Shown piece after piece: positions 2,767 through 59,148 of a DNA stretch of 64,000 nucleotides; the first letter of the stretch is position 1; every line of letters begins with the position of its first letter. The notes under the pieces were generated by a model that saw nothing but the letters and a program-made list of their open reading frames with translations, did no database searches and had not been told where the DNA came from. The stretch spans positions 3,073,501 to 3,137,500 of the forward strand of contig NZ_CP137624.1 of the NCBI RefSeq assembly GCF_033880585.1, in the 5' to 3' direction. The translations under genes were made by a program, and so were the position numbers. The stretch is from Lysinibacillus louembei. GTDB lineage: Bacteria > Bacillota > Bacilli > Bacillales_A > Planococcaceae.

Positions 2767-5505
2767 GTTTTAACTACTCTCTAAAGTTACATTGGTCTAA
2801 AACCCACAATTCAAACCGAAGCATCATTCTATCGTTTTACTACTCTCTAAAATTACATTGGTCTAAAACACAAACACACAACAAGTGGATGGACTAAAAG
2901 TTTTACTACTCTCTAAAATTACATTGGTCTAAAACCGTAACTTTAACTTACACCAACTTCAAAAAGTTTTACTACTCTCTAAAATTACATTGGTCTAAAA
3001 CAAAGGGCGATGAAATCTATCATTCCAAGTCGTTTTACTACTCTCTAAAATTACATTGGTCTAAAACATTGAGTTAAAGCTACTTAAACAGCTTAAAGTT
3101 TTACTACTCTCTAAAATTACATTGGTCTAAAACCAAAGCCTTTATTGATGTCAATTTCATTATGTTTTACTACTCTCTAAAATTACATTGGTCTAAAACG
3201 AGTTATTAAATACAATGCCAATTACAGGAGTTTTACTACTCTCTAAAATTACATTGGTCTAAAACTGCTACTAAAACTGGTGTTACTGCTAAAGAGTTTT
3301 ACTACTCTCTAAAATTACATTGGTCTAAAACAGGTGGCTGAGGCGATACATAAAAGTCGCTGTTTTACTACTCTCTAAAATTACATTGGTCTAAAACTAA
3401 CATTTACAGTAATCATAAAGCTTCTTAGTTTTACTACTCTCTAAAATTACATTGGTCTAAAACCGCAGCCGATGTTGATGTTTCTGCATCTGAGTTTTAC
3501 TACTCTCTAAAATTACATTGGTCTAAAACATATTCTTCTTTTGGAATGAAATTTGCTCTGTTTTACTACTCTCTAAAATTACATTGGTCTAAAACTTGGG
3601 TCTTAGTTATTTTGAACTTGATACTGTTTTACTACTCTCTAAAATTACATTGGTCTAAAACACCACATCAGCAACACTATTTACAAAGCAGTTTTACTAC
3701 TCTCTAAAATTACATTGGTCTAAAACACATCTTAGAGGAGCAAGTACCCGAAAAATGTTTTACTACTCTCTAAAATTACATTGGTCTAAAACTACGAGGG
3801 CGCAAGCTACTCACGACTAGCGGTTTTACTACTCTCTAAAATTACATTGGTCTAAAACTCCATGATGTACCTTTTTTGTTTTCAGACCGTTTTACTACTC
3901 TCTAAAATTACATTGGTCTAAAACACATTTGGCGCTGTCAATGTGACAAATATAGTTTTACTACTCTCTAAAATTACATTGGTCTAAAACATGGGGCAAA
4001 GATGACCGGTTTAGGTTGTTGTTTTACTACTCTCTAAAATTACATTGGTCTAAAACCTAGTATCGACTGTACTTTATTAGCATTTTGTTTTACTACTCTC
4101 TAAAATTACATTGGTCTAAAACGCAAATCATAATTGCTAAACAATGCAACATGTTTTACTACTCTCTAAAATTACATTGGTCTAAAACGTGAAATTGTTT
4201 CTTCTGATTGTTTAGCGTGTTTTACTACTCTCTAAAATTACATTGGTCTAAAACCATCTGCGCCCGGTGGACTACCACCTCCGCGTTTTACTACTCTCTA
4301 AAATTACATTGGTCTAAAACAAGGAGCTGTATACGATGTATAACTTTTTTGTTTTACTACTCTCTAAAATTACATTGGTCTAAAACCTATTGAAGAGGTG
4401 GCTGGAGGGGTTAGAAGTTTTACTACTCTCTAAAATTACATTGGTCTAAAACCAACAAAGGAGTTAAACTACTTACATCTGCGTTTTACTACTCTCTAAA
4501 ATTACATTGGTCTAAAACTTGTGATATAATGTGTTTGTATTGTCGTTGTTTTACTACTCTCTAAAATTACATTGGTCTAAAACAATCCCCTCCACCTCTT
4601 TTGCATAATCAACGTTTTACTACTCTCTAAAATTACATTGGTCTAAAACTCTCTGTCAATACTGTGATTGCACCAGCTCGTTTTACTACTCTCTAAAATT
4701 ACATTGGTCTAAAACACCTTGTAGTTCCGATGACCATATTATTAGTTTTACTACTCTCTAAAATTACATTGGTCTAAAACCCTTAATTGGTAGGTTTTTT
4801 ATTCTATTTTGTTTTACTACTCTCTAAAATTACATTGGTCTAAAACACATAAAGCAAGTCATAGAGATTATGACAGGTTTTACTACTCTCTAAAATTACA
4901 TTGGTCTAAAACATAGAAGTCGATTAGCTACTAGGCATATCAGTTTTACTACTCTCTAAAATTACATTGGTCTAAAACCTATCTTTAGAGAGGATAATTT
5001 TTGATTAAGTTTTACTACTCTCTAAAATTACATTGGTCTAAAACACCTATATTGTATCACTTTGCTAATTTTTAGTTTTACTACTCTCTAAAATTACATT
5101 GGTCTAAAACTGGTACTTTATATCCTCTATCATCATACAAGTTTTACTACTCTCTAAAATTACATTGGTCTAAAACAGAACATTTAGGATTTATGCTATT
5201 AACCTAGTTTTACTACTCTCTAAAATTACATTGGTCTAAAACTGTTGTCACCTCATTATATTATTTTAGAATGTTTTACTACTCTCTAAAATTACATTGG
5301 TCTAAAACATACACTTGAAATATTACACGATTTAATTTGTTTTACTACTCTCTAAAATTACATTGGTCTAAAACCTAGAGGCTTTTCAGGAACGAGTTCT
5401 TTAGTTTTACTACTCTCTAAAATTACATTGGTCTAAAACAAATGACGTTAAGGTAGACGTTGAATATTTGTTTTACTACTCTCTAAAATTACATTGGTCT
5501 AAAAC
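2767..5505 (-). CRISPR. Type II-A CRISPR array A, 42 repeats / 41 spacers
   Basis: 42 repeats of 36 bp, reading on the plus strand GTTTTACTACTCTC...TTGGTCTAAAAC, with 30-bp spacers (29 bp at four or five positions). Repeats are identical except the leftmost (2767-2803), which is 37 bp with an inserted A and an A-to-G change. The crRNA strand is minus, because the tracrRNA anti-repeat resembles the plus strand. The right end abuts ATTTGAG, the leader-anchoring sequence known for II-A, so new spacers enter at the right, next to csn2; the degenerate left repeat is the old leader-distal end. No two spacers are identical. Spacers at 3068-3097 and 4453-4482 share a related core. Confidence 0.98.
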
Positions 5506-46081: not shown

Positions 46082-46870
46082 CTATATTTTCTCCATAACA
46101 CCATAATGAAATTTCGCCGTCTGACGTGCAAAGCGCTGAAAGCCATAGCGCTCAAAATAGTCAGACTGATAATGCGCCTTCAACACGACACGCTTTTTCG
46201 CCACGCGTAGTGCTTCCTGCATCCACTCAGCTGTCAAAGCTAAATGGCTCCCCGCCTGTCTTAGTGCCTCAAAATTATTCGCTTCCTCAATCGTTTCCTC
46301 AAACATCGGGTCCATATACACAACATCAAAGGCATTAGCTGGCTGCTGACGTAAAAATTCAACTGCCTCTGCATGGACAACCTCAATTTGCCGCATGCAA
46401 GTTGTCAAAGGCAATTTGGTCGTATCATATGTTTGCATCCCATGCTTTACAATAAAGGCAATATTGCGATTTGCCTCAAGCCCAACTACTTTACCTTGCT
46501 CACCTACTGCAAATGCTGCTAGCATGCTATCTGCTCCCATGCCAAGCGTGCAATCTAAAAAGGAATCCCCTTCTTCGAGCTGGCAAGCCTCAAGCAGTGG
46601 CTCCATTTCACCACGTGCCACTCGCTTTAAGCGAAATGCCGCAGAATTTGGATGAAAAAAGAAAGGCGCAGTTGCACCTTTCGCATAATATTCATAACGA
46701 TTTTTCCCCGCAACAATAACATTCGCCTGTAACTGACGACCAAGTGCCGCAACGGAGCGCTTTTGACGTGGAACAAATTCAATTTTTAGCGTTTCACAGA
46801 CAAACTGTGCTAACTTCTCCGACAATTCATCTGGTCGCCCAGCTGTCGTAACAACTGTTACTCCGCACAT
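46082..46870 (-). CDS. RsmJ-like SAM-dependent methyltransferase
   Basis: 262 residues with a class I methyltransferase fold: motif I FLDCTLGMGADSMLAAF, motif II VVGLEANRNI, the motif IV-like VVYMDPMFEET and a final FERYGFQRFARQTAKFHYG. The DPMF motif and layout fit the RsmJ group that methylates small-subunit rRNA; the RNA target is inferred from the family. An N-terminal beta region (VTVVTTAGRPDELSEKLAQF) is present. Its start overlaps the bacilliredoxin 3' end by 13 bp, so the two are co-translated. Confidence 0.82.
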   Translation of the reverse strand: MCGVTVVTTAGRPDELSEKLAQFVCETLKIEFVPRQKRSVAALGRQLQANVIVAGKNRYEYYAKGATAPFFFHPNSAAFRLKRVARGEMEPLLEACQLEEGDSFLDCTLGMGADSMLAAFAVGEQGKVVGLEANRNIAFIVKHGMQTYDTTKLPLTTCMRQIEVVHAEAVEFLRQQPANAFDVVYMDPMFEETIEEANNFEALRQAGSHLALTAEWMQEALRVAKKRVVLKAHYQSDYFERYGFQRFARQTAKFHYGVMEKI

Positions 46871-47289
46871 ACTTGCTTCAATACGTCTGTTAAATGGTCA
46901 CGCACCTGCTCCATCGGGAAGCCTTCAATATTTTCACGTGGGATGAAATAAGCAAGCTGCCCATCCTTTAAAATTGCCATTGATGGTGAACTTGGTGGTA
47001 CCTCATCAAAAAACGCACGCATCGTCGCAGTCGCCTCTGGGTCTTGCCCTGCAAATACCGTCACTAATTGATCTGGCTTCACCTCCGCAATTGCTTGGCT
47101 CGCCGCTGGACGTGCTAAGCCTGCTGCACAGCCACACACAGAGTTAATGACAACTAGAGCTGTCCCTTTTTGCTCTGCCATAAACTCATTCACTTCATCT
47201 GCTGTTGTTAATTGTGTAAAACCTGCATCCACTAATTCTTGACGCATTGGCTGTGTTACTTGTCTCATATATTCATCGTACGCATTCAT
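46858..47289 (-). CDS. Bacilliredoxin (BrxA/BrxB family)
   Basis: De-bacillithiolating thioredoxin-like protein of 143 residues with the CGC active site in VVINSVCGCAAGLARPA, the defining motif of the YphP/YqiW family. It opens NAYDEYMRQVTQPMRQELVD and ends PREN-IEGFPMEQVRDHLTD, also typical. The ATG at 47289 has AAAGAAGGCGAAAAC. It indicates a bacillithiol-producing Bacillales host. Confidence 0.93.
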   Translation of the reverse strand: MNAYDEYMRQVTQPMRQELVDAGFTQLTTADEVNEFMAEQKGTALVVINSVCGCAAGLARPAASQAIAEVKPDQLVTVFAGQDPEATATMRAFFDEVPPSSPSMAILKDGQLAYFIPRENIEGFPMEQVRDHLTDVLKQVCAE

Positions 47290-47622
47290 GTTTTCGCCTT
47301 CTTTCATATTTATTCGCAAAGCTTATTATATCAATGTTTTATAGTAGTGTAAAAGAGTTTGATTGACGCTGAATCTCAGCGAAGCTCGGAGTTTTTGTTT
47401 TCATGAATAGATTTTGAGAAAGTACAATTATTTACAATAGATCCTACAAAGCTAACCAATAGAGTTGTGAAAATATAACCTTAGGAGTGCTATTCTTTTG
47501 TAAAGAGAGGTTTCATTTTACAAGCTCAGTGATACTTACATACTTCTCTTTGATGAACCTCTTGAAATAGGTTATCAAAAGATTATTGTTTTTGCTATTT
47601 CCTCGTTATATAGGAAAACCTA
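47290..47622. other. AT-rich gap without a recognisable gene
   Basis: Stops in all frames. There is a hairpin-like GTAAAGAGAGGTTTCAT...GATGAACCTCTT at about 47500-47566, but no coding signal. Confidence 0.5.
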
Positions 47623-48481: not shown

Positions 48482-48718
48482 ATGTCTTTAGATATCATTA
48501 CTTCTATTTTTACAATTATCGCAGCAATCGCTACTATCACTGCAACTATTATTAGCTTTATAGCCTTGCGTAGGAGTTCAAACGCAACTCAAACTGCACA
48601 TAAAGCTCTCGAAAAAATATCGAATATTACAAATTTTGGAGACAAAAACATTAATGTTAATGACCAAAAAATAGGGGATAATAGCCATGTTATAAACGGG
48701 AATAACAACACTATGTAA
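48482..48718 (+). CDS. Small TM protein of an ABC-3C-type locus
   Basis: 78 residues: a hydrophobic segment at residues 5-27 (IITSIFTIIAAIATITATII), a helical linker and the C-terminal motif KIGDNSHVINGNNNTM. The same motif opens the next protein. CAGGGAGATGCTCAT precedes the ATG; the next gene starts 15 bp after the stop. In ABC three-component systems a membrane or nuclease effector works with an ABC ATPase and a middle component, so this could be the membrane-acting part. Effector role is inferred. Confidence 0.65.
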   Translation: MSLDIITSIFTIIAAIATITATIISFIALRRSSNATQTAHKALEKISNITNFGDKNINVNDQKIGDNSHVINGNNNTM

Positions 48719-48732
48719 AGTAGGTATAAAAA

Positions 48733-49281
48733 GTGAAAATTAATTCGGATAATATAGATGCACATAATCAATCTATAGGAAATAATAGCCATGTTATAAA
48801 TGGAAATAACAGTACAATAGAAATTAGTTACTCGCTAAAAACTGTGACCCCCAGTGATATTTACAAAGTATGCGAAATATTAGATGGTAATTTAAATGAA
48901 AATAATGATTTTATTTTCGATTTAAATCCAGATTGGTTAGAGAAAATGGAGTATAATTTTTTGGATCATTACAAGGATATCTTCGAAGAATACTGTATAT
49001 TTTACGAAGCAGTAGAGGAGGTATTTCGTTCAACTAACATAAATGGCACTAGACTTTTAAGAAGAATTAACATTATTTATAAAGACATTTTAATCGAAAA
49101 TGCTCATTTAAATAGCGATAAAATTATAAAAAATGTAATCAATACTTTAAAAAAGGTTGTTGAAGATAGCTATGAAGAAACTACCTTGACAACCGAACAT
49201 ATTGAAGATGTCATCTTAAGTGTCGTTTTCTTCGCATTTACAAGATGTAAAGTTCTAGAAAAACCACCATTTCAAAAATAA
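48733..49281 (+). CDS. ABC-3C-type protein with G-N-N motif and C-terminal helical domain
   Basis: 182 residues, start GTG. The N-terminus carries SIGNNSHVINGNNSTIEIS, nearly identical to the end of the preceding protein at protein and DNA level. The rest is helical and acidic (LLRRINIIYKDILIENAHLN, TLTTEHIEDVILSVVFFAFT), the style of the C-terminal domains that define ABC-3C effector components. Ends CKVLEKPPFQK, nine bases before the next start. The precise CTD subfamily cannot be named by eye. Confidence 0.62.
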   Translation: MKINSDNIDAHNQSIGNNSHVINGNNSTIEISYSLKTVTPSDIYKVCEILDGNLNENNDFIFDLNPDWLEKMEYNFLDHYKDIFEEYCIFYEAVEEVFRSTNINGTRLLRRINIIYKDILIENAHLNSDKIIKNVINTLKKVVEDSYEETTLTTEHIEDVILSVVFFAFTRCKVLEKPPFQK

Positions 49282-49289
49282 ATTGAGAG

Positions 49290-49547
49290 TTGAAAATTGA
49301 AACAATGTTAATCATTAATGATTTAAAAAAACCACAAAACACCATTATTTATTGTGCAGCATGCATAATTTTTATTCTAAAAAAATTAGATAAATCAATG
49401 CATATTGACACACTTTTCAACACAATCAAAGTCGAATACAGCAAAAATATGGAATATACTGATTTTATATTAGCCTTAGACTTTTTATTTCTAATAGAAA
49501 AGATTAAATTTGATAAAGAGGGGAAAATATGTTTATTAGAAGATTAA
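49290..49547 (+). CDS. ABC-3C middle component (MC6-like)
   Basis: 85 residues, start TTG behind TTGAGAG. Small all-helical/wing protein: NTIIYCAACIIFILKKLDKS, then FILALDFLFLIEKIKFDKEG and KICLL. The pattern of a YxxA helix followed by F-x-L-A-L-D-F/W-L-y-L-l-x-x-I and a short beta wing is that of ABC-three-component middle component 6. It overlaps the ATPase gene by 19 bp, typical for these systems. Confidence 0.68.
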   Translation: MKIETMLIINDLKKPQNTIIYCAACIIFILKKLDKSMHIDTLFNTIKVEYSKNMEYTDFILALDFLFLIEKIKFDKEGKICLLED

Positions 49548-51244
49548 TCCTTCAGGAAACCTATCCAAAAATCAAGCCAATTAGGGTTATATCATTTAAA
49601 TTAGGACTTAATTTAATTATAGATGATAGCGAAAAGTCTGGTAATAACGTAGGAAAAACAACTGTATTAAAAATAATTGGTATTTGTTTAGGTGATAAAG
49701 ACAAAAGTGCTATTTATACTGATCAAGAAACTAATTTAGTAAATCAAGAATTGAAGAACTATATCCATACTAATAAAATTGAAGCCATTCTTGAATTGTC
49801 TAAAGATACCTATAACTTAAACAATACAAAACAAGAGGCAGATGTTTATTTATCTGTTGAATTATTTAGTCATGGTAAAAGAAAAATTAATAGTACAATT
49901 GAAAATATGGATGATTATTATTTTTTATTACTAAAACAAATAATGTTCGATGATAATAATATGTATCCGTTGTATCTAGATATAATAAAAAAATTTATAA
50001 GAGTGGAAGTAGATTCTGGTGCTTATAAACTTTTACGATTTTCTTCAAACAAAGTATTATCTAATCTGACATATCGGTTAATATATAATTTTTTATTTAA
50101 TTTGATTAGCGTTGAGAATAATATAAAACTTGCTGAAAACCGAATAAATTTAAAAAAGAACGATGAGAATCTAAATAACTTCAACAAATTTCTTCACAAA
50201 AAAGAAATCTCTGATTTAGATTTAGAAATACATAATCAGAATATTTTATTAAAAAATTTAAAGAAACAGATTAAAAATGATGTATCTGACGAAAATTTTA
50301 TCTATAAAATGGACAAATCAAGAGAATTAAAAGCTAAATTAAGTCTATTAAATCAATCATTAGGAACATTAGAATTTCAAATAAATATGCTAAAACAAAA
50401 CTTAGACTATACTTTTCAAAGTGAGAAAGACTTAAGCCATGAAGTATTACAAAATTTATATGACGAAACCAAAGAATTAAAAATTAATATACAAAAAACC
50501 TTTAATGATTTAGTAGAATTCAATGACTCTTTAGTAAAAAATAAAATCAAATATTATCAACATGTGTTAGAAACTAAAATGGATGATTTAAAAGAATTAA
50601 AAAAATCTAAAAGATTGTTAACTAGGGAGTATAAAAATCTAATTTCAAGTATTAATGAATTTGATTTTGATAAAACAAGTACACTCTATCAAAATCTAAT
50701 CACAGAACAAGCCAAATTACTAGAATTGCAATCTTTTCAATCAGAAAGGAATAGTTTAAATATCCTAAAAAACACGAATTTAGATATCATAAATAATTTA
50801 GAATTGGAGATTAAATTTAATCCCGAAGAAGCTGATAAAAATATCAGTATATTTAATCAATATTTTGAAATTAATACACATCAAGTACTAAACAATGTAT
50901 ATAAATTAAATTATGACCCTGACATTAGTAACTTTCCCTTACACCTTTTAGCATCGGATGAAAGCATCAGCAATGGTTTAAAGAAAGGGCTTATAAGCAT
51001 CTTTGACTTATCTTATATAGAATTTGCTGAAAAAATCAACAAAAAAATCCCAAAGTTTATTATTTATGATGTTATTGAAACTATTGAAAATGATATCCTC
51101 ACTAAATTATTTAGCTTAGCAAATACAATAAATTGCCAATATATTGTTGCAGTTCTTAATGAAAAAATCAAAGGCTTAGATAGTGTTTCAAAAGAAGATA
51201 CGATTCTATCTCTATCCAAAACTAATAAATTATTTAAGCTTTAA
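49529..51244 (+). CDS. DUF2326-type ABC/SMC-like ATPase of an ABC-3C system
   Basis: 571 residues. Walker A SGNNVGKTTVLKIIG at about 36-50; a long coiled-coil insertion around residues 200-430 (ISDLDLEIHNQNILLKNLKK, LKINIQKTFNDLVEFNDSLV); a signature-like SNGLKKGLISIFDLSYIEFA; Walker B KFIIYDVIETIEND; and a D-loop/H-loop region (CQYIVAVLNEKI). This SMC-like ATPase with DUF2326-type C-terminus is the core of ABC three-component conflict systems. AAAGAGGGGAAAAT precedes the ATG. It is expected to sense DNA ends or phage structures, by analogy with Rad50/SMC proteins. Confidence 0.78.
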   Translation: MFIRRLILQETYPKIKPIRVISFKLGLNLIIDDSEKSGNNVGKTTVLKIIGICLGDKDKSAIYTDQETNLVNQELKNYIHTNKIEAILELSKDTYNLNNTKQEADVYLSVELFSHGKRKINSTIENMDDYYFLLLKQIMFDDNNMYPLYLDIIKKFIRVEVDSGAYKLLRFSSNKVLSNLTYRLIYNFLFNLISVENNIKLAENRINLKKNDENLNNFNKFLHKKEISDLDLEIHNQNILLKNLKKQIKNDVSDENFIYKMDKSRELKAKLSLLNQSLGTLEFQINMLKQNLDYTFQSEKDLSHEVLQNLYDETKELKINIQKTFNDLVEFNDSLVKNKIKYYQHVLETKMDDLKELKKSKRLLTREYKNLISSINEFDFDKTSTLYQNLITEQAKLLELQSFQSERNSLNILKNTNLDIINNLELEIKFNPEEADKNISIFNQYFEINTHQVLNNVYKLNYDPDISNFPLHLLASDESISNGLKKGLISIFDLSYIEFAEKINKKIPKFIIYDVIETIENDILTKLFSLANTINCQYIVAVLNEKIKGLDSVSKEDTILSLSKTNKLFKL

Positions 51245-51708: not shown

Positions 51709-52347
51709 TTATTCAGATTCAATTAAATAATTAATATAAGGTACTACACAAGCTAGGAGAATACAAATTGAAACTCGCTCTATTACATCGGATACTTCTT
51801 CCATCAAAAGAATATTTGAACAAACTATGGGAATAAAACCAAAAACTACTATAGCAATTGTATATCTATTTAACATTTTTTTGCAATTAAAGCTCGAACT
51901 AAAACTTTTAAAGAAGACTTTATCGCCAAACCATCTCTCAATTAGACTTATAATGATTATTCTGGCATATTTAAATACATAATAAGTAATCCACAAATTA
52001 AGTATAACAATAAAGATTATAAAATTCGCCATTGAATCATCTAAATCATTGTATATAATACTTAAAAGATCTTCAAAGTATATACTTATAATATTAATAT
52101 TAAATGTAGCCAACAATACAAAAAAACAAAACAGAAATATAAATAAACTTAAAACACTTTCAAATAAGAGCAATAAATAAAATCTTATTGTATCCTCTTT
52201 AACCTTAAAAAGGACGATAATCCCTGCCCCTATAAAATATCCTCTTAGCACAACTATATATTTACCAAAGCCCAATATGCCTATTGAAAATTCAATTATT
52301 GTATATATAACTGCTACAAAAATAGCACTTGGTAAGTACTTCTTCAA
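51709..52347 (-). CDS. Multi-pass membrane protein, unknown
   Basis: 212 residues with about six hydrophobic segments (FVAVIYTIIEFSIGIL, LLLLFESVLSLFIFLFCFFV, NFIIFIVILNLWITYYVF, IAIVVFGFIPIVCSNILLM). No conserved motif recognised and no partner gene. A+T-rich codon use like the ABC-3C genes suggests the same acquired island. GAGGTGAGGAATTTTG precedes the frame. Confidence 0.55.
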   Translation of the reverse strand: MKKYLPSAIFVAVIYTIIEFSIGILGFGKYIVVLRGYFIGAGIIVLFKVKEDTIRFYLLLLFESVLSLFIFLFCFFVLLATFNINIISIYFEDLLSIIYNDLDDSMANFIIFIVILNLWITYYVFKYARIIIISLIERWFGDKVFFKSFSSSFNCKKMLNRYTIAIVVFGFIPIVCSNILLMEEVSDVIERVSICILLACVVPYINYLIESE

Positions 52348-56736: not shown

Positions 56737-58191
56737 GGTCCCTTAGTCAAGGACAAATGTAAAAAAGGGTTTAGGCTGCCAAGAGATGGTTTCTGTATTG
56801 TACAGGAGCCATCTTTTTTAGGTTCCATTGATAGCGATAATTATTGTAGTAGACCATGTAGTGATCGATTTTAGCACGTACCTCGTCTAACGTTTTGGCC
56901 ATGCTGAAATCAACCTCGTCTTTTAAGTGTCCGAAGAAGGATTCTTGTGGGGCATTATCCCAACAGTTACCTCGACGTGACATCGATTGACCAAGTTTGT
57001 AGTGCTTTAAAAGCTTTTGGAATTTAGGGCTTGTATAATGAACACCTTGATCGGAGTGGATGAAAGCATCTGGCTGGAGCTTTACACGTTTATTACGGAA
57101 GAGTTTTTTCACCGTTGTTGTGGCGATACCTAGCGTAATACGGTCTGATACATGATACGCTAAAATTTCATTCGTTGAGCCGTCTTTTATGGTCGATAAA
57201 TAAGCCATCGTTCCGTTGTATGGAATATAGCTGATGTCTGTTAGTAATACTTTACCTGCCACACCTTGTTTGAATTCACGGTTTAATAAATTCGGCACCA
57301 CGCGATGTTCTTTCGTTGCTTTCGCCATTTGTTTATAGGGATTCGGTTTACGATGTGGGCAAACGACGCCATATTTACGCATAATACGCTGGATTTTCTT
57401 TCGGTTCATGACGAGATCAAAATCTTGTTCAAGCGTCATTTTAATCGAGCGTGAACCTTTCTTATAACCACGACGCTTAAAGGCTTTTAAGATCTGGTCG
57501 CGTGCTTCTTCATCTCGTTTTTCCTTTACAGCTCGTGCTTCTTCTGTCTCTAAAAAGCGATAATAGCCTGAACGAGAGACGTTTAAAAGCGTACAAAAAT
57601 ACGTCACCATGCGTTTAAATGGAAACTGCTTAAGCGTATCTGCAATGAGTTGAAATACTTTACGTGCGCTTTGTTTTTGACTGTCGCTGAGCAGCCTCCT
57701 TTCGGTCACTTCGAGCTTTTTTAGTAGCTCGATTTGTCCTTCTAATAATTCAATACGAGCCGCTTGTCTTTCTACCATTTCTGTCATGGTTAATTCACGC
57801 TGTAACGGTCTGCCTGAGCTCGTTTTTCGCGTATCTGTCAGACCAATTAATCCATTTTGATCATACGCTTTTCGCCAACGTGAAGAAGCTTGTTCAACAC
57901 GCTTCATCCCGAGCACTTCGATATCAAAGCCATATTCGCTAAAGATCTGTCTTGGTGTTTTACCAGCCAAATACTCATCGATAAATTGGCTTTTAAATGT
58001 ATCTGCGTACGTAATTGTTCGTTCGGTTACTTTGACTACATGTGGATTCTGTTGTAGTTGTTCCATCTGTTTTGGTGAAAATAATTGTTTACTCATCGTT
58101 GTTGTCCGTCCTTTAGTTGCTTGAGAATCAAGTATATAAAAAATACCTGTGAAGTGCACACTCTTTTTCAAGTGTCCACTCCACAGGTACC
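56737..58191 (-). mobile_element. IS3-family insertion sequence, 1455 bp
   Basis: Imperfect terminal inverted repeats: left GGTCCCTTAG...GGACAAATG, right (complement) GGTACCTGTG...GGACACTTG, each followed by a run of A. The flanks share ATAT (56733-56736 and 58192-58195), a 4-bp target duplication. One long transposase frame. It separates a small membrane protein gene from the aminopeptidase gene without damaging either. Confidence 0.88.
56771..58096 (-). CDS. IS3-family transposase, single frame
   Basis: 441 residues. N-terminal HTH region (GKTPRQIFSEYGFDIEVLGM), a coiled coil (QAARIELLEGQIELLKKLEV) normally in OrfA, then HTH_21 (KKGSRSIKMTLEQDFDLVMN) and the integrase core: D in VLLTDISYIPYNG, D in FIHSDQGVHYTS and E in DNAPQESFFGHLKDE. 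OrfA and OrfB are fused in one frame, so no frameshift is needed. The ATG at 58096 follows GGACGGACAACAACG. Catalytic residues are intact. Confidence 0.92.
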   Translation of the reverse strand: MSKQLFSPKQMEQLQQNPHVVKVTERTITYADTFKSQFIDEYLAGKTPRQIFSEYGFDIEVLGMKRVEQASSRWRKAYDQNGLIGLTDTRKTSSGRPLQRELTMTEMVERQAARIELLEGQIELLKKLEVTERRLLSDSQKQSARKVFQLIADTLKQFPFKRMVTYFCTLLNVSRSGYYRFLETEEARAVKEKRDEEARDQILKAFKRRGYKKGSRSIKMTLEQDFDLVMNRKKIQRIMRKYGVVCPHRKPNPYKQMAKATKEHRVVPNLLNREFKQGVAGKVLLTDISYIPYNGTMAYLSTIKDGSTNEILAYHVSDRITLGIATTTVKKLFRNKRVKLQPDAFIHSDQGVHYTSPKFQKLLKHYKLGQSMSRRGNCWDNAPQESFFGHLKDEVDFSMAKTLDEVRAKIDHYMVYYNNYRYQWNLKKMAPVQYRNHLLAA

Positions 58192-58221
58192 ATATTAAAA
58201 GTACAAATCTTCTTACTTTCA

Positions 58222-59148
58222 TTACATAATTAATTGTTCACCATCTAAATAAACAACTGGGTTTTTGACAACACAGTCGATATGCACATCTGCTTTATTG
58301 CTGCCTCCGAATGGTGCATTGCTACCAAAGGCAATATGAATTGTGCCATAAACCTTTTCATCCTCTAACACATTGCCACAAAGAATGGCGCTCTTGTTTG
58401 CACCAATGCCAAACTCAGCAATGATGCGTCCATTCCCTTCACCAAGTAGGGATAAGAGCTTTGGCCCATCTGGACCGATAGCATCCTCTAATCGCCCATC
58501 GCGAATTTTCAATAATAGTGGCTCCTGTAATATGCCAATATTGGCGATTGAGCCATCAATTAAAATTTCACCATTTGCCGATGTTTCATTTGGTGCAATA
58601 TAGGACTCGCCCGAAGGAATATTGCCATAATCTCCTGATTGGCGCACAATACCAGTGGATGGGATACCATTGCGATTAGCGATGCTAAACGTTAATTCAT
58701 ATCCATCCTTTACAATACGAACAACAGCCGCATCGTTCAGAAGCTGTACATAATGTGCGACAAGTGCTTCGATTTCCTCAGCATTTGCATGCAGCGCTCC
58801 CTGCTCTAGCATAGATAATGTAACGCCTGGCATTGTCGCTACTCGACCACCTTTTTCACAGGCATTTTTTCGCGCTGCTGTATGTGTTAAGGAATGGGAT
58901 GTCACGCAAAGCGTCACGTCCGCATTTGCCATTAAATCCGCTACTGCTGGATGTGGCTCCTGTCCTGATTTTTCTAATAGTGGCATGACAACAAATAAAG
59001 TATTTTTTGTTATTGTTAAGCCTGCTTCATAAAAGATTTTGGCAATCTCTTGCTGATGAATATCTGTTAAAATTAGCAACGTTTCTGTTGATTGGACTTG
59101 TAAATTACCCGTTAAAACATTTAATGCAATTTTATGTAAATGCTGCAT
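58222..59148 (-). CDS. M29-like aminopeptidase family protein
   Basis: 308 residues resembling the leucyl aminopeptidase/AmpS-like group: DVTLCVTSHSLTHTAARKNA, GYELTFSIANR, IPSGESYIAPNETSANGEIL (metal-site Glu), IAEFGIGANK and GTIHIAFGSNAPFGGSNKAD with VHIDCVV (His/Asp ligands). The same fold is used by 2,5-dihydroxypyridine dioxygenase, so a peptidase reaction is likely but unproven. It sits 13 bp downstream of the IclR gene in a catabolic cluster. AAGGAGAAGGACACT precedes the ATG. Confidence 0.75.
   Translation of the reverse strand: MQHLHKIALNVLTGNLQVQSTETLLILTDIHQQEIAKIFYEAGLTITKNTLFVVMPLLEKSGQEPHPAVADLMANADVTLCVTSHSLTHTAARKNACEKGGRVATMPGVTLSMLEQGALHANAEEIEALVAHYVQLLNDAAVVRIVKDGYELTFSIANRNGIPSTGIVRQSGDYGNIPSGESYIAPNETSANGEILIDGSIANIGILQEPLLLKIRDGRLEDAIGPDGPKLLSLLGEGNGRIIAEFGIGANKSAILCGNVLEDEKVYGTIHIAFGSNAPFGGSNKADVHIDCVVKNPVVYLDGEQLIM

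Follow-up and report, generated by a model that had tools for sequence, protein, structure and literature searches.

Introduction

ATP-binding cassette three-component (ABC-3C) systems are placed within the Lamassu superfamily, in which, according to an excerpt of PMC10586767, the structural maintenance of chromosomes (SMC)-like protein LmuB is the likely sensor and LmuA the effector, and the variable C-terminal domains of LmuA may dock it. Amyloid signalling motifs, as excerpts of PMC12261475 and PMC7889193 describe them, occur in pairs or triplets at the N-termini of receptors and the C-termini of effectors, typically encoded by collocated genes; they share a beta-arch, yet are diverse beyond noticeable homology, and the amyloid signature of adjacent effector and receptor genes is described there with nucleotide-binding leucine-rich repeat (NLR) receptors. 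The effector in bacterial amyloid signalling is thought to act on membranes (PMC7889193, in the same excerpt). The four-gene locus described here lies in a stretch of 64,000 nucleotides from Lysinibacillus louembei (contig NZ_CP137624.1 of assembly GCF_033880585.1, positions 3,073,501 to 3,137,500), referred to as the window; all coordinates are those of the window unless a locus in another genome is named. It is an ABC-3C (Lamassu-superfamily) locus, akin to known phage-defence systems, and probably a conflict locus whose effector is a separate single-pass membrane protein, coupled to the rest of the system by matched G/N-rich motifs that would work like amyloid signalling motifs.

Locus organization and matched motifs

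The locus comprises four open reading frames (ORFs), A to D, all tightly packed on the + strand in the ORF listing of the window. Gene A (48482..48718) codes for a membrane protein of 78 residues, the proposed effector; gene B (48733..49281, GTG start) for the effector-side ABC-3C subunit of 182 residues, with a motif and a C-terminal domain (CTD) of the CTD10 type; gene C (49290..49547) for the middle component MC6, with 85 residues as listed; and gene D (49529..51244) for an SMC/Rad50-like ABC ATPase of 571 residues. A first-pass annotation, made from the sequence alone, had given the order and positions of the four ORFs correctly, apart from the start of C, which is probably the ATG at 49305 rather than the listed TTG, since this start is conserved among relatives of C. 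The gap between B and C would therefore be 23 bp (8 bp as listed); that between A and B is 14 bp, and C and D overlap by 19 bp. Putative ribosome-binding sites were recognized by eye before A (GGGAG) and D (GAGGGG).

The G-N-N motif, which the first-pass annotation had named for the CTD protein only, is indeed present in B, and the main finding is that A carries it as well. It forms the last 23 residues of A (effector-side motif, 48647..48715) and residues 7-29 of B (receptor-side motif, 48751..48819), and the two copies are nearly alike (A QKIGDNSHVINGNNNT, B QSIGNNSHVINGNNST). When the C-terminus of A was compared with all 494 ORFs of at least 30 residues in the window, B yielded the best local match with a score of 86, followed by a score of 34 (A itself aside), and none of 20,000 composition-preserving shuffles of the first 50 residues of B reached 86.

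The same arrangement was found in the other loci of this layout, in which a short, mostly G/N-rich motif ends A and begins B; the two motifs are alike within a locus, and the motif types vary between lineages. Examples are L039 (A GKVATNVVGSNNS, B GKVATNITGDSNS), L061 (A SVNNKGVIGGSISGGVSNN, B SVNNKGIIAGKIEGDVTNN), L078 (A GNNSPIYNNKGSV, B GPNSPIYNNSGDV) and L038 (A NNKLISKGNNNLQQVG, B NNKLSAKGDSNVQQVG). Over 21 non-redundant loci, the scores of the true pairs summed to 1247, compared with a mean of 665 (standard deviation 49) for permuted partners, and none of 200,000 permutations was as high. The control regions were not significant, with 2238 of 20,000 permutations as high for the N-terminal part of A and 2694 of 20,000 for a stretch of the CTD of B. 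The outcome was the same when only a 10-row clade was used, when each deep lineage was represented by a single locus, and when L041, L049 and L072 were left out (0 of 200,000 each), and in two five-row groups only the true pairing (1 of 120) attains the observed value. A two-rung pattern (G..N, a few residues, G..N) occurs in 17 of the 21 ends of A (shuffled mean 7.1, maximum 12 in 500) and in 12 of the 21 starts of B (shuffled mean 4.4, maximum 10). Proline is scarce in the terminal stretches (7 of 1155 residues).

The locus lies in an AT-rich island, as the first-pass annotation had observed (25.1% G+C in the locus and 27% in the surrounding stretch, compared with 37.4% in the window). Such a composition favours codons for N, K and I, and the likeness of the motifs might thus be a chance product of low-complexity, N/G-rich sequence, A being an unrelated small membrane gene. 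This explanation is disfavoured by the permutation and shuffle tests, including those in which at most 2 of 2000 shuffles of the first 50 residues of B attained the observed score in 18 of the 21 loci, and it does not account for the mutual exclusion of the membrane gene and fused effectors among the loci checked (see below); its probability is regarded as very small.

At L071, where the ABC-3C locus is fused and HNH-like, a short upstream gene (2540-2962) codes for an Xre-like regulator (named by eye) in which the DNA-binding part is followed by a comparable stretch, NGNSGVIMGNNNSNVNN; regulators may therefore also contain this motif type.

Split layout and its distribution

Regarding the other MC6/CTD10 loci examined, the effector domain resides on the CTD protein and is restriction-nuclease-like (by eye) or of the HNH_2 or SMEK type (by profile). 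The usual effector domain N-terminal to the CTD is not present on B of the window, in which about 40 residues with the G/N-rich motif occupy its place; accordingly, B has 182 residues and the fused relatives 247-485. The first-pass annotation had rightly pointed to the separate membrane gene of 78 residues, but the part that is fused to the CTD in the relatives is one of the above domains and not, as it had supposed, a membrane part.

The split layout consists of a hydrophobic protein (57-112 residues) immediately followed by a CTD protein (174-222 residues, L049 aside), then the middle component and the ATPase. Loci were gathered by scanning plasmids, GTDB genomes, viral contigs and further genomes; copies were dropped before counting (L046-L048 of L039, L062 of L059, L073 of L053, L076 of L060, L069 of L068 and L019 of L016), as were broken or cut loci (L012, L045, L065, L080 and L086, of which L065 was used in the tree only). 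The 21 remaining loci are located on chromosomes, plasmids and viral contigs, which agrees with the conserved four-gene synteny that the first-pass annotation had proposed as a check. Hosts include Planococcus, Bacillus suaedae, Tenuibacillus, Aquibacillus, Domibacillus, Levilactobacillus, Schleiferilactobacillus and Lacticaseibacillus (on a 7.9-kb plasmid), as well as a metagenome-assembled genome of the Streptococcaceae, Collinsella, Flavobacterium, Acinetobacter and Alteromonas. The layout is rare: among 261 genomes of the order to which the window belongs, seven had a match to D, and five of these, the window's included, were split.

An automatic check of the upstream region took in 53 loci; L041 and L049, which lack a callable B of 120 residues, were outside the 19 split loci counted. 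All of these 19 split loci had a membrane ORF upstream, and none of 32 fused loci had a matching one. Of the fused loci, 25 had at least 300 bp of upstream sequence; seven had less, so that for them the absence has been tested in part only. At the fused locus L077 an upstream ORF is hydrophobic but gives no match (score 25).

Gene A has one hydrophobic stretch (mean hydropathy 2.38) at residues 9-27, predicted from hydropathy only to be a transmembrane helix (48506..48562), and resembles the gene upstream of B in the split relatives. A 19-residue stretch with a mean hydropathy of at least 1.89 was found in 20 of the 21 A proteins, the value for L078 being weaker (1.46); A of L083 has two hydrophobic stretches. 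An alignment of 12 A proteins shows a conserved helix (consensus MExVxLILSIIASILSI) and, within the motif, two invariant glycines. Neither A and B of the window nor 10 related A proteins matched an enzyme family above cut-off. A profile of A, compared with 398 genomes of the window's class, gave one convincing match, to the known locus in genome G508 (E-value 1.5e-7), and missed the window's own A; of 14 further weak matches (E-values 4e-4 to 0.01), nine were inspected, and in none of them did the following gene encode a matching G/N motif (best pair score 33, L126). A of the Collinsella locus L046 (3999-4193) matches phrog_29486, of unknown function (E-value 8.8e-10), and more weakly the holin-named phrog_13404 (E-value 1e-4), which would fit a small, membrane-active, phage-borne protein.

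In a tree of the ATPases with 35 rows (17 of the 21 split loci and 18 fused loci) the split or fused label needs three changes, whether gains or losses, of which at least two are forced by well-supported branches. B of the Alteromonas locus L083 belongs to CTD12 (E-value 1.3e-18) and its ATPase groups with plasmid loci annotated as MC8; the split layout therefore occurs outside the MC6 branch. Some copies look decayed, such as that of Acinetobacter (L041, 2300-4882), with the ATPase in two ORFs and a B without a standard start, and L049, with an interrupted B (4198-4800).

Origin of the motif likeness

The aligned motif residues of A and B are 54% identical (230 of 425). At identical residues with a variable codon, 125 of 229 codons differ, and 115 would be expected for a random draw of codons from the same genes; the likeness of the proteins has therefore been kept while silent positions lost their memory, and a recent duplication is disfavoured. 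The motifs might also be the ends of a former single gene (membrane helix, motif and CTD) that was split with a duplicated linker, in which case the likeness would reflect ancestry and not function. A and B are adjacent, overlapping in several loci, and the DNA of the window's own motif pair is 72% identical, as such a history would predict; the randomised synonymous positions and the joint change of motif type in A and B between lineages speak against it, and it is considered improbable. In only 9 of 17 comparisons was A more similar to B of the same locus than to A of the nearest relative, which argues against full concerted evolution.

Families and folds of B, C and D

The assignment of the locus to the ABC-3C (Lamassu-type) systems, already made in the first-pass annotation, is supported by the profile matches of C and B and by the recurrent four-gene layout. 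C matches MC6, as had been proposed (PF20293, E-value 1.5e-15, 57.3 bits at a cut-off of 27.2; alignment), and also MC7, marginally above the cut-off of that family (E-value 3.1e-6). The CTD of B (residues 61-176, 48913..49260) fell just short of the CTD10 cut-off as a single sequence (E-value 8.5e-6, 26.8 bits at a cut-off of 28.1), and CTD10 was matched by 8 of 11 aligned B proteins at E-values up to 0.1. The role of B as a CTD protein was borne out by comparison of a profile of 13 B proteins with one of 11 fused-effector ABC-3C proteins (98.7% probability, E-value 3.4e-16). This alignment begins at column 43 of B and column 166 of the fused proteins; B is therefore without the N-terminal effector part. 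The AlphaFold model of B has a helical CTD and a predicted local distance difference test score (pLDDT) of 75; residues 1-33, the motif included, are unstructured in this monomer model (pLDDT below 50). Its best structural match was YydB in the YydD-YydB model 9a6c (E-value 0.034, template modelling (TM) score 0.51), which is not significant by E-value.

D had been described as a DUF2326-like ATPase of the SMC type. The second half of this description agrees with its AlphaFold model (pLDDT 84), for which the best PDB match was YydD of Bacillus subtilis (E-value 7e-21, TM-score 0.47), with further matches to LmuB of Lamassu (E-values 1e-12 to 1e-9), Smc and Rad50; the LmuB structures 9uxh, 9hqx and 9nyg are within the nine best matches. 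Regarding DUF2326, 3 of 10 aligned D proteins matched, but D of the window matched neither this nor any other Pfam, NCBIfam or PADLOC family above cut-off. Among relatives in plasmid records, five of seven are annotated as DUF2326, two of these with MC6. D also matches the phage family phrog_5467, of unknown function (E-value 4.7e-28). None of A to D had a PADLOC match or an NCBIfam match above cut-off, and a sequence search of solved structures with D and B gave only coiled-coil-type or marginal matches. The sequence GNNVGKTT (49640..49663) is taken to be the Walker A motif of D, and SNGLKKG (50969..50989; STGxRK in the consensus of the relatives) presumably marks the signature-motif region.

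Proposed mechanism and its weighing

By sequence, the motifs of A and B seem similar to the amyloid-type, self-templating signals found in immune receptors of fungi and bacteria. In the proposed mechanism D, probably as a dimer, C and the CTD of B would form the sensor complex. Detection of invading DNA, a trigger suggested by analogy with Lamassu, would expose, cluster or release B; the clustered N-terminal motifs of B would take on a cross-beta or beta-arch structure and serve as a template for the C-terminal motif of A, which is like them. The clustered helices of A would then damage the cell membrane, and the infected cell would die or stop growing before phage release. The docking domain would thus remain with the sensor and the effector would be reached via the templating motif, a layout that fits the sum of the published descriptions of amyloid motifs and of Lamassu/ABC-3C.

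A stable docking contact without amyloid is the most serious alternative, although a rather unlikely one: A might anchor B, C and D to the membrane, where the sensor would watch DNA entry, or B might hold A inactive in the manner of an antitoxin. Locus-specific pairing is equally expected of any co-evolving contact, and A and B are adjacent in all 21 split loci. The partners, however, carry the same sequence type and not complementary ones, which suits homotypic templating, and the motifs are short, G/N-rich, poor in proline and unstructured in the model of B.

Several observations weigh against signalling by templated motifs in an ABC-3C locus. The own partner ranked first for A in 15 of 21 loci (one tie) and for B in 16 of 21, and three pairs are weak when compared with shuffles (L072, 199 of 2000; L041, 57 of 2000; L049, 11 of 2000). 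In 8 of 17 comparisons the likeness of A to A of the nearest relative equalled or exceeded that to B of the same locus, and one motif type is common to five Bacillales loci. The low confidence of the monomer model of B counts as neutral, and no PDB match at an E-value of 0.001 or better was found for this model. For D, the nine best structural matches have modest TM-scores (0.36-0.47 over the length of D). The receptor is not an NLR (NACHT/NB-ARC), as B, C and D represent CTD10, MC6 and an SMC-like ATPase, and A could not be assigned to the Bell domain from the Pfam comparison, in which no family exceeded its cut-off for A of the window or for 10 related A proteins. Finally, the copy in the window may be partly degenerate, since its D departs from the consensus at the putative signature motif and sits on a long branch together with D of L060.

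Templated signalling remains the preferred reading of the window locus. The broader proposition, about as probable as its opposite, is that SMC/Rad50-type ABC-3C sensors of bacteria and prophages signal to a minimal membrane effector by prion-like templating; this would be an NLR-free amyloid signalosome that occurs in at least two separate branches among the ATPases, and the differences in motif type between lineages could keep systems resident in the same cell insulated from each other. In that case amyloid signalling would not depend on NLR receptors, and a membrane protein of roughly 60 to 80 residues together with a motif of 20 residues would be enough for a death effector. The specificity of templating can be tested directly on the 21 natural motif pairs, and these provide a rule for finding more systems, namely adjacent genes whose C- and N-termini match each other above those of other loci.

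Genomic neighbourhood

Bacilliredoxin-like and methyltransferase-like genes (named by eye; 46082-47319 in the window, 2163-3376 in L053) stand beside both the window locus and the Planococcus locus L053, and two genomes of the same genus carry other genes on this side of the bacilliredoxin-like gene; the two loci therefore probably share an insertion site (hotspot). A clean empty site was not readable in a genome of the same species, in which the contig ends about 1 kb past the site. D has a single match in the whole genome and was not found in one same-species and three same-genus genomes searched. Downstream of D, in the same AT-rich island, a hydrophobic-looking protein of 212 residues is encoded (51709-52347, - strand; no family above cut-off), and an IS3-type transposase-like ORF (by eye; 56771-58222, - strand) follows about 5.5 kb downstream of the locus.

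Neighbourhoods between a repressor and an integrase are a usual place for prophage accessory genes. Loci L060, L051 and L054 have an Xre-type repressor-like gene upstream and metallopeptidase and integrase/recombinase-like genes downstream (by eye). IMG/VR viral contigs carry L060, L061, L062, L063 and L072. L039 adjoins a type II restriction-modification pair and a toxin-antitoxin pair, and L041 type I restriction genes. With tblastn, phage records gave no match to the window's D, to D of L060 or to A of L046, and plasmid records none to the window's B or to A of L059. Viral contigs scanned with single proteins, namely the window's D and D of L078, likewise gave no match.

Comparison with known systems

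CTD10/MC6 ABC-3C systems with a fused effector have the CTD10 protein, MC6 and the SMC-like ATPase in the same order as here, whereas in the window locus the CTD protein lacks an effector domain and a separate membrane gene and matched motifs are present. Regarding Lamassu or DdmABC (LmuA-LmuC-LmuB), D of the window matches LmuB structures, but the enzymatic domain of LmuA (a nuclease in one Lamassu structure entry, by title) was not found here. YydB-YydD of B. subtilis (PDB 9a6c, an integrative model from crosslinking and deep learning) was the best structural match of both B and D. The YydB chain has 481 residues, compared with 182 in B, and its effector side is therefore presumably fused. 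An MC6 match was found in the B. subtilis control genome and, together with the structural matches, suggests that yydBCD is probably an ordinary fused ABC-3C system; a figure legend in PMC8894471 shows the yydBCD region as Rok-repressed.

A published link between ABC-3C and amyloid-type motifs was not found among the matches listed, and the word amyloid is absent from the main text of some ABC-3C papers; an earlier remark in the founding papers on ABC-3C or on bacterial amyloid signalling sequences (BASS) is possible. Nor did these matches join SMC-like sensing of foreign DNA with an amyloid-type relay. The closest parallels are the BASS motifs of Bell-NLR pairs and the fungal HET-S/NWD2 pair, in which, as described in an excerpt of PMC7889193, a motif at the C-terminus of the effector and the N-terminus of the receptor is encoded by adjacent genes, as here. 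The likeness rests on motif position and gene adjacency, whether or not the motif belongs to BASS1-10. In contrast to these systems, the proposed receptor of the window locus is an SMC-like ABC-3C complex, the effector consists of one short hydrophobic helix and a motif, and many of the hosts belong to the Bacillota.

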